The notes under the pieces: model-generated
What the model was told of the DNA's origin: nothing
Databases searched by the model: none
Seen by the model: the letters and a program-made list of their open reading frames with translations, nothing else
Shown here: in pieces, positions 5,491 to 10,160 of the stretch
Layout: each line of letters begins with the position of its first letter
How positions within the stretch are numbered: position 1 is the stretch's first letter
Program-made: the position numbers and the translations under genes
NCBI GenBank assembly: GCA_022706865.1
Contig: JAKJBT010000030.1
Location: 1-18,014 of the forward strand
Source: Bacillota bacterium
Lineage (GTDB): Bacteria; Bacillota_A; Clostridia; Lutisporales; Lutisporaceae
DNA length: 18,014 nt
Direction of reading: 5' to 3'

Positions 5491-5536
5491 ATACCCGGTT
5501 GAGGTAATAGTCACCCCGACCGGGTAAAATTTTTTA
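5491..5536. terminator. Bidirectional terminator between convergent genes
   Basis: TACCCGGT (5492-5499) pairs with ACCGGGTA (5519-5526). AAAATTTTTT follows on the plus strand and TATTTTATTAG on the minus strand. It can end both the orphan gene (stop 5484) and the membrane protein gene (stop 5534). Confidence 0.75.
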
Positions 5537-6334
5537 TCTGTTTTTACGACGCTTCACTATAAGAAAATATCCCAAGGCAATTCCAACCACAAACACGGCC
5601 ATAGGAGTTATAAAGGCTTTAAAGGGATTACCGGAAATAAAAATTGAAGTAGGTCCATCAGAGCCACCGATTATCCCTATAGAAGAGTTAATTTCAGTTT
5701 CACTTATATCTTCCGGTATACCGGTTGTATCTGGGGTCACAGTGTCTTCCCCCTCCCCTTCTTCTCCGGCAAAAATAACTGTCTGATCCTTACCGGCATA
5801 TACTGTTTTGGTATTTCCATCGAAAGAAAACTCAGTAATTTTCCCATCGCTGTTTACGAAGGCTTTAATAGCGGCAGCTTCCATCTGTGACCATACATCA
5901 TGGTCTTCAGGCAAGACCACCGATAAATTTTTATAGTCCGGGCCATCTACCTTATATGCTCCCCAGGCAATTTTAAAATCCGCGCCATGCTTCATGAGTG
6001 ACAAAAGCACATAGTCCCCGACTGCAGGACTGTTTAGGCTGCTGCCCTCCTCATTGTCAAACAAGTTGTAACTAAAGGAGGGTACTATCTTTGCTTCAAC
6101 AAGCTTTAACTGCTTTTTGGCAGAGGATACATTCAGATCCTTGCCACTGATAATACTTTTTTCCACCCGGACTTTTACAGCATTTTCATCAACGCTTATA
6201 ATTTCACCAATAACTAATGCATCATGATCATTATGCATAAATCGGTAAAGAGCATCTGCGGCATATACGCCGATAGGTAAAACTAATATCACAAGCAGTA
6301 TTAATAAAATCTTCAAATTTCTTAGAATTCTCAT
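5534..6334 (-). CDS. Membrane-anchored extracytoplasmic protein with GIIGGSDGPT motif
   Basis: I start this at ATG 6334 because AGGAGAG lies 9 nt upstream; the frame is open 12 codons further, to 6370, without a better site. The 266-residue product has a signal peptide (RILRNLKILLILLVILVLP, likely cut after VYA). An extracytoplasmic domain follows, with a beta-rich part (ALVIGEIISVDENAVKVRVE) and two PAVGDYVLLSL/KIAWGAYKVDG stretches. Next come an acidic Glu/Thr/Pro linker and, at 217-235, SSIGIIGGSDGPTSIFISG. A transmembrane helix (about 240-260) and a KRRKNR stop-transfer end complete it. The GIIGGxDGPT segment matches the conserved motif of beta subunits of Na+-translocating decarboxylases, but the rest of that multi-helix subunit is absent, so no pump function is implied. 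Function unknown. Confidence 0.8.
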   Translation of the reverse strand: MRILRNLKILLILLVILVLPIGVYAADALYRFMHNDHDALVIGEIISVDENAVKVRVEKSIISGKDLNVSSAKKQLKLVEAKIVPSFSYNLFDNEEGSSLNSPAVGDYVLLSLMKHGADFKIAWGAYKVDGPDYKNLSVVLPEDHDVWSQMEAAAIKAFVNSDGKITEFSFDGNTKTVYAGKDQTVIFAGEEGEGEDTVTPDTTGIPEDISETEINSSIGIIGGSDGPTSIFISGNPFKAFITPMAVFVVGIALGYFLIVKRRKNR

Positions 6335-6569
6335 ATTAATAGTCTCTCCTATACCCATATGGGAAAACATGCTTTTAAAAAATAATATGCCAGCGGGTTT
6401 TCTTTAATCAAAACTGCCTTTCGATTATTCTCTGCAGCCCGAAACACTGAGTCGCATCTGATACTGCTATTTCATAAGGTATTAAACAATCTAATATATG
6501 ATTTCAGCATTCTTAGCTGTTTGCACATCCGGACTATATAATTATATCACAATATACACTCATGCTACG
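6335..6569 (-). promoter_or_regulatory. Upstream region of the GIIGGSDGPT gene with extended -10 promoter
   Basis: The minus strand has TGTG-A-TATAAT (6554-6544), a perfect extended -10 element, but no good -35 at 17 bp. Transcription from it would leave an untranslated leader of about 200 nt before the ATG at 6334. The leader contains CTGC..GCAG and GGG..CCC pairings. I could not match it to a known riboswitch class. Confidence 0.35.
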
Positions 6570-6628
6570 CAAAAATGGGAAATGGATAGGCGTCATATAT
6601 AAAGACTACGATTGCCTATCCATTTCCC
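6570..6628 (-). terminator. Strong intrinsic terminator of the candidate RNA
   Basis: Read on the minus strand, GGGAAATGGATAGGC (6628-6614) and GCCTATCCATTTCCC (6591-6577) form a perfect 15-bp stem with a 22-nt loop. ATTTTTGCG follows, with five T at 6575-6571. There is no comparable T-run on the plus side, so it works in the minus direction. Confidence 0.75.
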
Positions 6629-6890
6629 GAGGCTTCCTGCAATGGAGGTTACCTCCTTTTTAAATTTACCCCATCGCTTCAGCTCTAATCCCTGCTTATC
6701 TAAATCGTCATTCAAAAAGGAGCGGGTTTCTGAAAATACTTTTCGATATAATCGAAACAACAGCGGCCTTAAGGCCTTTCAGCGAACTACACAATACCCT
6801 TTTTAAACCAAACCAATTCGTTTCAGCAGGTAATCAATAGCTTAGTCCCGCGGGGTACCCCCTTACTAAGGTTATTCCTTTTCTTGAGGT
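6570..6890 (-). ncRNA. Candidate structured non-coding RNA, about 320 nt
   Basis: This gap between two minus-strand genes has its own consensus promoter (6925-6897) and a strong terminator (6591-6577 with 6628-6614). In between there is no frame with a start codon and a matching ribosome binding site. The longest open stretch on this strand (about 61 codons, 6778-6593) has no ATG and no ribosome binding site. The transcript would be rich in local pairing: CTTAGT/ACTAAG around GGGGTACCCC near the 5' end, GGCCTTAAGGCC, TTTCGAT-TAT-ATCGAAA, and GCGATGGGG with CTCCATTGC. I compared it by eye with 6S, tmRNA, RNase P, SRP RNA, T-box and common riboswitches and saw no convincing match. A decayed gene fragment is the main alternative. 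Confidence 0.5.
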
Positions 6891-6896
6891 AACTTC

Positions 6897-6925
6897 ATTA
6901 TATAACTTACTGAATATTCTGTCAA
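6897..6925 (-). promoter_or_regulatory. Consensus sigma-A promoter of the candidate RNA
   Basis: Minus strand TTGACA (6925-6920), exactly 17 bp, then TATAAT (6902-6897): both boxes match the consensus perfectly. It lies after the terminator of the aminotransferase gene and faces the 330-nt region without a gene, so it should give a strong independent transcript starting near 6890. Confidence 0.75.
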
Positions 6926-8265: not shown

Positions 8266-8369
8266 GGAATGAATTACCACATGTCTTTCCATTGCGGGCA
8301 TCTTATGATAAGCTATTAATGTACCCTGCAAATATCAGTGGTTAAATATGGTTTTAAGGAGGTGTTCCC

Positions 8370-10160
8370 GTGTCATATTTAAAGCTTATTGATTATAAAA
8401 TTCAATCCTTGGCAGAGTCGCTTTCATCCATACTCAATGTGGAAACCACCGTAGTCGATGAGCATTTGCTGAGAATCGCAGGAACAGGAGACTTTTACCA
8501 TCGTATTAATGAAAGCAGCCCCGAAAATTCGTTATTCGCAAAAGTTTTAAAAAGCGGAAAAGCAGAGTTAAACCTATACGATAAAAAAAATCCTATATGT
8601 CAGACCTGCAATAGTTCTGATACCTGCAAAGAGCTTAAAAGCATGATTCTTCCGATAAAAGTTGAGAATGATATTATCGGTGTTGCAAGCTTTGTATCCT
8701 TTAATGCCGCCCAGGATCAGCTTATGGTTGAGAAAAAAGAGGAATATCTTGAACTGCTTAAGCATTTTGCGGAAAGCATTGAAAAAGAGATAATGAGCAT
8801 CAAGATGGTGAATAAGCTCAATATGGGCATAGCCGAAATTAACGGCATCATAAACTCCATAAACAGAAGCATTATCATATTGAATAAAGAGCAGCGGATT
8901 ATTTATATAAATTCTAAAGCAATAAAATCCCTGAATATTAATTTTTCAGCCGATAAGATCATAAACAAAAGAATCAGCAGCATTATTAAGAATTTTAAAG
9001 CAGAGGATACTAATAATAAGGAAGTCATAGGCAGCTGGACAATAAGCGGCAAGCCGGTAAAAGTCATATATAAAATAAATTATATAATACTCGACAATAA
9101 AAACGTCTCAACTATAATTAATTTTGATACCCTGGATGAAATAATCAGCATAGCAATGACTTACAACAGCGATGATGAAACGACCTTCGAAAACATTATC
9201 GGACGCAGCCAGATAATGCAGGATGTTATAGAAAAAGCAAAAATAGCTGCTAAATCCGATTCCACAATATTTCTGCACGGCACAAGCGGTACCGGCAAGG
9301 AGTTGTTTGCCAGATCCATACACAATGCAAGCTACAGAAAAGACGGCCCTTTTGTTGCGGTAAACTGTGCCGCCCTGCCGGAAAACCTTATCGAATCGGA
9401 ACTCTTCGGTTATGAAAAAGGCGCTTTTACAGGAGCAAGTCAAAAAGGCAAAACAGGAAAGTTCGAACAGGCTAATAACGGTACATTGTTTCTTGATGAG
9501 ATTGCAGACCTCCCTCTGCATCTTCAGGCAAAGCTGCTAAGGGTTCTTCAGGATAAAAAGATTGACAGGATAGGCGGCTCCTCTCAGATAAATGTTAATG
9601 TCAGAATAATTTCCGCTACTCATAAAAACCTTGAGGAAATGGTAAGGAATAATGAATTCAGGGAAGACTTATTCTACAGGCTGAATGTAATACCCCTGCA
9701 CCTGCCGTCCTTAAAGGACAGAGGAGAAGATGTCCTCCTGTGTTCTGAATATATTATCAAAAAATTATGCCTTAAGATGAACAAATCCCCAAAACGTATT
9801 TCCAAGGATGTAGAAACAATGTTCATGGGCTATAGTTGGCCCGGAAATGTGAGAGAACTGGAAAATGTCCTGGAGTATGCCATTAATTTTTCCTTTGATG
9901 ATGAAATAACCGCAGAAAATCTGCCTGAGTATTTTCTGGCCAAATATGCAAAGAAAGATAATGTTGATGAATCCATCAATATTGAATCACCGGAAATCGA
10001 TAACTTAAAGAGCCTGGATGACATAACCAAAGAATATGAAAAAAAGCTTTTAAGAAATCTTTTAAGTAGATACGGCAATGATACCGCAGCGAAGAAGAAA
10101 ATCGCAGAAAAGCTCGGAATGAGCATTACTACCCTCTATAGAAAATTAAACGATTATTAA
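8370..10160 (+). CDS. Sigma-54-dependent transcriptional activator (PAS-AAA+-Fis), CdsR-like
   Basis: A 596-residue enhancer-binding activator. The N-terminal sensor (1-140) looks GAF-like and has a cysteine cluster, Cys77, Cys80 and Cys86 (CQTCNSSDTC), that could bind a metal, a cluster or a redox signal. A PAS-like domain (about 155-265, IIILNKEQRIIYINS) follows. The AAA+ domain has Walker A GTSGTGKE at 304-311, the sigma-54 contact loop GAFTGA at 351-356, Walker B GTLFLDEIADLP and WPGNVRELENVLE. The C-terminus is a Fis-type helix-turn-helix (AAKKKIAEKLGMSITTLYRKL). The GTG start follows AAGGAGGTG. It is convergent with the L-cysteine desulfidase gene, which has a -24/-12 promoter. In Clostridioides difficile a sigma-54 regulator, CdsR, controls the cysteine desulfidase CdsB, so the same link is likely here. 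Confidence 0.9.
   Translation: MSYLKLIDYKIQSLAESLSSILNVETTVVDEHLLRIAGTGDFYHRINESSPENSLFAKVLKSGKAELNLYDKKNPICQTCNSSDTCKELKSMILPIKVENDIIGVASFVSFNAAQDQLMVEKKEEYLELLKHFAESIEKEIMSIKMVNKLNMGIAEINGIINSINRSIIILNKEQRIIYINSKAIKSLNINFSADKIINKRISSIIKNFKAEDTNNKEVIGSWTISGKPVKVIYKINYIILDNKNVSTIINFDTLDEIISIAMTYNSDDETTFENIIGRSQIMQDVIEKAKIAAKSDSTIFLHGTSGTGKELFARSIHNASYRKDGPFVAVNCAALPENLIESELFGYEKGAFTGASQKGKTGKFEQANNGTLFLDEIADLPLHLQAKLLRVLQDKKIDRIGGSSQINVNVRIISATHKNLEEMVRNNEFREDLFYRLNVIPLHLPSLKDRGEDVLLCSEYIIKKLCLKMNKSPKRISKDVETMFMGYSWPGNVRELENVLEYAINFSFDDEITAENLPEYFLAKYAKKDNVDESINIESPEIDNLKSLDDITKEYEKKLLRNLLSRYGNDTAAKKKIAEKLGMSITTLYRKLNDY

Follow-up and report, generated by a model that had tools for sequence, protein, structure and literature searches.

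We propose that the 18,014-nt window (the whole stretch of DNA analysed) carries a stand-alone gene, with a strong-looking sigma-70 promoter and an intrinsic terminator of its own, for a structured small RNA some 320 nt long, which belongs to one small Lutispora-like clade and would act by pairing in trans with Shine-Dalgarno regions; we give this reading as a whole a probability of roughly 0.5. Computation supports a separate, non-coding transcription unit with few broken base pairs and a narrow distribution. A free-standing structured RNA gene is the best reading of the locus because no Rfam family matches it, its promoter is kept, few of its pairs are broken and the reading frame within it is broken. 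An earlier sequence-only reading had proposed an independent, uncharacterised non-coding RNA of about this length, and that proposal is favoured by the boundaries, a promoter identical in the sister genome G001, a fold z-score of -5.4, the few broken pairs and the lack of an Rfam family.

Promoter, terminator and reading frames of the RNA gene

The RNA locus lies on the minus strand of a Lutispora-like Clostridia bacterium, between the gene for a class-V aminotransferase (8186-7041) and the gene that follows (Table 1). A promoter scan of the window yielded 50 promoter-like sites, among which the one at 6925-6897 is the only perfect one, matching 12 of 12 consensus positions with a 17-nt spacer; from 300 dinucleotide shuffles, a perfect promoter with a spacer of 16-18 nt is expected 0.033 times per window. 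The 29-nt promoter is identical to that of G001 at 29 of 29 positions. At the other end of the unit, perfect 15-bp arms (6628-6614 and 6591-6577) enclose a 22-nt loop and are followed by one A and then T5. This terminator is the only inverted repeat in the window with arms of at least 15 and a loop of up to about 30, and none of this kind arose in 100 shuffles. All 15 terminator pairs form in each of four sequences (window, G001, G021 and G022), with two pairs altered on both sides in G022; set against a shuffle control (21-33 of 500), this pair-keeping is only suggestive. The perfect promoter, the perfect 15-bp stem with its T5 and the high quality of both boundaries had all been pointed out by the sequence-only reading, and each is borne out, promoter and terminator both going beyond chance in the shuffles. 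We placed the putative 5′ end of the RNA about 7 nt past the -10 box and its 3′ end at the T run.

Table 1. Features of the RNA gene, in window positions
Feature	Position	Strand	Basis
Sigma-70-type promoter of the RNA gene, TTGACA-N17-TATAAT	6897..6925	-	consensus scan, shuffles and identity with G001
Proposed RNA, about 320 nt	6571..6890	-	fold z, alignment to G001, pair-break test
Rod-like domain, about 195 nt, closed by UACCCC/GGGGUA	6664..6858	-	folds predicted separately for window and G001
AAAAGGAGG, just 5′ of AACCTCC and able to pair with it	6652..6660	-	sequence comparison
Conserved 31-nt block, GUAACCUCCAUUGCRGGAARCCUCGGGAAAU	6622..6652	-	shared by window, G001, G021 and G022, which differ at two A/G positions only
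Intrinsic terminator stem-loop, 15 bp	6577..6628	-	inverted-repeat search, shuffles, pairs kept across four sequences
Terminator T run	6575-6571	-	sequence

The list of open reading frames places a 55-aa frame with a TTG start within the RNA (6760-6593). In the alignment, read by eye, a one-base indel breaks this frame in G001, and it has no match in Pfam, NCBIfam or a protein database searched for proteins of 0.55-1.75 times 55 aa; on these grounds we rejected a small protein. The earlier statement that the region lacks a usable reading frame is therefore right in effect, although a frame exists. A remnant of a coding gene, which would have spoken against an RNA, was found neither by Pfam and NCBIfam on two frames nor among proteins of the size range just given; because of that range, a remnant of a longer protein was checked by Pfam and NCBIfam alone, on the two frames. 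By eye, the frames of a possible leader peptide after AAGGAGGT differ between the window, G001 and G022.

The neighbouring genes gave observations of their own. Positions 6493-6373 (minus strand) hold a broken remnant of a 136-aa ORF, spread over two frames with 85% DNA identity over 123 positions; in G022 this ORF stands intact after the 3′ module of the RNA (L095:2154-1744), and no NCBIfam model matches it. A 278-aa ORF (5534-6370, minus strand) is listed from 6370, its start lying probably nearer 6334 by eye, and residues 228-259 of its protein resemble the beta subunit of sodium-pumping oxaloacetate decarboxylase, below the Pfam cut-off. The gene at 8370-10160 (plus strand) encodes a sigma-54-type activator whose best NCBIfam model, PrdR, is likewise below cut-off; it diverges from the aminotransferase gene in the window and G001.

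Predicted fold and its conservation

The fold of the whole unit is more stable than those of its shuffles (z -5.4 in the window and -4.4 for the RNA of G001), and much of this excess stability comes from the terminator, since z falls to -2.5 both for a 211-nt stretch containing the rod and for the stretch in G022. The largest predicted feature is the rod, which has several internal loops and a two-hairpin end and is predicted independently in the window and in G001. Three palindromes had been noted from the letters; all are in the sequence, and two of them, GGCC-UUAA-GGCC and UUUCGAU-UAU-AUCGAAA, are predicted to fold as hairpins within a longer domain, whereas CTTAGT/ACTAAG is unformed in the predicted fold.

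Between the window and G001, 293 of 319 aligned sites of the RNA are identical (91.8%), as against 83.7-87.7% of third codon positions and 92.6-94.0% of all positions in three neighbouring genes; so compared, the RNA appears to be under moderate constraint. When the 31 differing columns are laid on the window's own fold, 12 fall in the 204 paired columns and 19 in the 117 unpaired ones. Eight of the 12 changed pairs still pair in G001, three are broken by substitution and one by a gap. Random placement of the same substitutions over all columns, a test that mixes helix avoidance with pair-keeping and uses the two complete copies only (window and G001), broke 10.6 pairs on average, and in 0.1% of its 2000 trials no more than four. 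Between these two copies every change that keeps a pair is one-sided, and none of the pairs in the rod is altered on both sides.

Distribution among relatives

With the aminotransferase as bait we gathered 80 loci, several of which end soon after the aminotransferase gene; the closest by identity come from Bacillota, Gracilibacteraceae, Lutispora and Clostridiales genomes. BLAST found the RNA in only one of the 80, L001 of genome G001. In a sample of 22 genomes of the family, three match, each with one copy (the whole RNA in G001, its 3′ half in G021 and 39 bases in G022), and the RNA was undetected in the other 19. The G021 copy is cut by the contig end, its 5′ part being off the contig, and G022 keeps only the last 90 nt or so. 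The sequence-only reading had called for a collection of homologues and had named a lack of conservation beyond the species as a reason to drop the RNA; G001, G021 and G022 do share the RNA or parts of it, which takes its conservation past the species, but it was not seen beyond this small clade.

The 26-nt core of the conserved block is exact in the same three of the 22 family genomes. With at most three mismatches allowed, the block is matched in 5 of 391 genomes of the class sample, three of them being the known exact ones and the other two having three mismatches, and the reversed-block control gave at least 2 matches; in the phylum sample, with 2 candidates scored per genome, 2 of 398 genomes match, namely G001 and, over 24 bp, G683. 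A model of the rod finds only G001 among the 22 genomes and missed the partial copy in G021, which has model positions 120-195, up to the contig end. In G022 this model search did not find the rod, and the promoter scan gave no promoter of 9/12 or better ahead of the block, so what this genome carries may be a remnant or a different transcript. When we modelled the 3′ module and scored 150 of about 600-1600 candidates per genome, the best match beyond the three known genomes was in G004 (E 0.007); we rejected it as a distant homologue, as it is a terminator-like hairpin without the conserved block. A phage, plasmid or viral origin was likewise rejected, since a distant-mode search of phages and plasmids gave no match and three patterns had no exact counterpart in viral contigs.

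At locus L002, whose aminotransferase is 90% identical, inspection by eye shows a terminator and the next gene's promoter-like stretch, with no RNA between them. In G003 and G006 the sigma-54-type regulator and aminotransferase genes run in one direction, and the RNA was undetected. Given the narrow distribution, including the lack of a detected RNA at L002 and in G003 and G006, the RNA was probably gained, or changed beyond recognition, within the clade.

A conserved block that may pair with Shine-Dalgarno sequences

The 31-nt block is the farthest-surviving part of the RNA. It is C-rich, with an anti-Shine-Dalgarno-like core, and runs into the terminator, its last 7 nt being the start of the 5′ arm. 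Between the window and G022, 29 of its 31 letters are kept; for comparison, the sigma-54-type regulator genes of the two agree at 72 of 153 fourfold-degenerate sites. The neighbouring AAAAGGAGG is common to the window, G001 and G021 (its first base differs) and absent from G022. In the predicted folds the C-rich core is mostly paired in the window and G001 and mostly open in G022, which is without the neighbouring GGAGG.

The ACCUCC of the block matches the anti-Shine-Dalgarno end of 16S rRNA. We computed duplexes of the block with the start regions of 16 window genes (all 17 except a GGDEF gene, whose start is uncertain), and only 1 of 300 shuffles of its own letters scored as low. The 5′ end of the RNA gave the same figure at these start regions (1 of 300) and the rod stretch, used as control, 243 of 300; low duplex energies of this kind are expected of any RNA with CCUCC. 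No gene in the window stands out as a target of the block, the strongest duplexes lying away from gene starts. Across three genomes we found 15 sites complementary to the block, 3 of which are the RNA genes themselves, and 9 control matches. The 12 other sites, some of which recur in two or three genomes, divide into 7 inside a frame of at least 80 residues and 5 in none; not one precedes an independent start, the start codons close to five of them being internal to the same frame, and we took none as a target. A similarity to tusA (window 2658, two mismatches) was rejected, since it is mid-gene and near chance by our own estimate.

A trans-acting sRNA that covers ribosome-binding sites would be the likeliest mechanism, because the C-rich part can pair with Shine-Dalgarno sequences; we put such pairing at about even odds. 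Specifically, GUAACCUCCAUUGC, the C-rich 3′ block immediately upstream of the terminator, would pair in trans with the Shine-Dalgarno regions of mRNAs and so keep ribosomes from binding, in the manner of the C-rich-seed sRNAs known from other Gram-positives. The rod, together with the local GGAGG, would make the RNA more stable and control how accessible the seed is. It is a familiar trait of Gram-positive sRNAs that their C-rich stretches engage Shine-Dalgarno sequences, as parts of PMC9410917 and PMC4132741 describe. A bolder version strikes us as a long shot: a new RNA family in which one clade combines a 195-nt rod with a 3′ module (31-nt block plus terminator) of wider conservation, making an anti-Shine-Dalgarno RNA whose seed its own GGAGG would lock and a signal or protein acting on the rod would open.

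Alternative explanations

A structured RNA might instead work through a protein, for example as a rod-shaped, 6S-like decoy of RNA polymerase or by offering the CCUCCAUUGCAGG hairpin as the site where a protein binds. The rod, larger than any other predicted feature and recovered in the prediction for G001 too, fits such a role, as does the hairpin CCU-CCAUUGC-RGG with its flanking AA/AA, in which both variable positions of the block are A/G opposite U. However, a 6S covariance model gives no match to the RNA even at E-values up to 5, and 6S genes over the cut-off sit elsewhere in seven of the eight genomes of the group searched, on which grounds we rejected 6S RNA (RF00013) as the identity of the RNA. 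Moreover, the search of G022 did not find the rod, and in this genome the small hairpin loses three outer pairs and a different fold is favoured. We consider a protein-binding role unlikely, if less so than the explanations that follow.

The conserved block could also be a DNA element, such as an operator of the neighbouring sigma-54-type regulator, with the RNA incidental to it. TCCATTGCRGG, a part of the block, recurs as TCCATTGCGGG at 8288-8298 (plus strand), between the regulator and aminotransferase genes, and in G001 (L097:3280, minus strand) with A for G, near ATGTCT as in G022; the latter genome has an imperfect second copy, ACCTCAATTGCG, at L095:2365 (minus strand), about 40 nt before ACCTCCATTGCG. 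The few broken RNA pairs and the both-sided changes in the terminator favour RNA over this explanation, as does the position of the block, which adjoins the terminator, where sRNA seeds are common. A role as DNA alone seems improbable to us.

Still less credence goes to a leader acting in cis, in which the terminator of an attenuator or riboswitch would control the gene downstream. Such a leader is disfavoured because the downstream ORFs differ, being HAD-phosphatase-like in G001 and G021 and the 136-aa ORF in G022, where a 10/12 promoter also lies between terminator and ORF; no Rfam riboswitch matches. The terminator does precede a gene reachable by read-through, and the only promoter of that gene's own in the window, G001 and G021 is an extended -10 (TGATATAAT) that was recognised by eye and is unlisted by the promoter scan, which makes a leader unlikely rather than firmly out. 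By eye, however, the sequence around the TGATATAAT-like site is common to L002, which is without the RNA. A remnant or lineage-specific stretch without present function is the least probable of all, for despite the very narrow distribution and the broken ORF just downstream, the promoter is identical in G001, few pairs are broken, each of the three genomes has one copy, and neither a similar protein nor a match in phage or plasmid records or to the three patterns in viral contigs was found.

Comparison with known RNAs

No Rfam 15 family reaches its gathering score in the window or G001, so the RNA takes on no known-family identity in the Rfam search that the sequence-only reading had advised, and its failure to recognise 6S, a T-box or a common riboswitch by eye is matched by Rfam. 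In E-value mode the window stretch gives five matches far below gathering, the best being a microRNA-type hairpin on the terminator, and G001 gives two sub-threshold matches, including RsaF, whose 18.6 bits fall short of the cut-off of 60. As far as Rfam and a limited literature search on Lutispora small RNAs show, the RNA is undescribed. Family databases miss lineage-specific regulatory RNAs of little-studied anaerobic Clostridia; should our reading hold, this locus is a candidate with exact boundaries, and an example of an RNA gene that varies between relatives in its 5′ part yet keeps a short block and the terminator. It is a narrowly distributed new sRNA candidate with clear boundaries, and taken alone it gives no evidence of a new principle or a new kind of system.

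By eye, GGGGGTACCCCGCGGG of the RNA resembles the T-box sequence AGGGTGGNACCGCG. In contrast to T-box leaders (RF00230), it lies near the 5′ end of the RNA, not beside the terminator, and Rfam gives no match. 6S RNA (180-200 nt; the RF00013 model has 187 positions) is, like the RNA proposed here, a free-standing rod with internal loops. We also noted two 6S genes over the cut-off in each of G001, G002 and G022 (loci such as L087 and L094).

Known C-rich-seed sRNAs are shorter than the RNA described here. With them it shares its own promoter and Rho-independent terminator, in the window and G001, and a conserved C-rich anti-Shine-Dalgarno stretch. According to parts of PMC9410917 and PMC4132741, IsrR and RsaE of S. 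aureus, LhrC of L. monocytogenes and FsrA of B. subtilis likewise have a terminator and a conserved C-rich stretch that can pair with Shine-Dalgarno sequences. The RNA of the window differs from this group in that no family matches over the cut-off, RsaF being the nearest named sRNA, and in that it is about 320 nt long, with a 195-nt rod and a core of ACCUCC rather than UCCC or a run of C.
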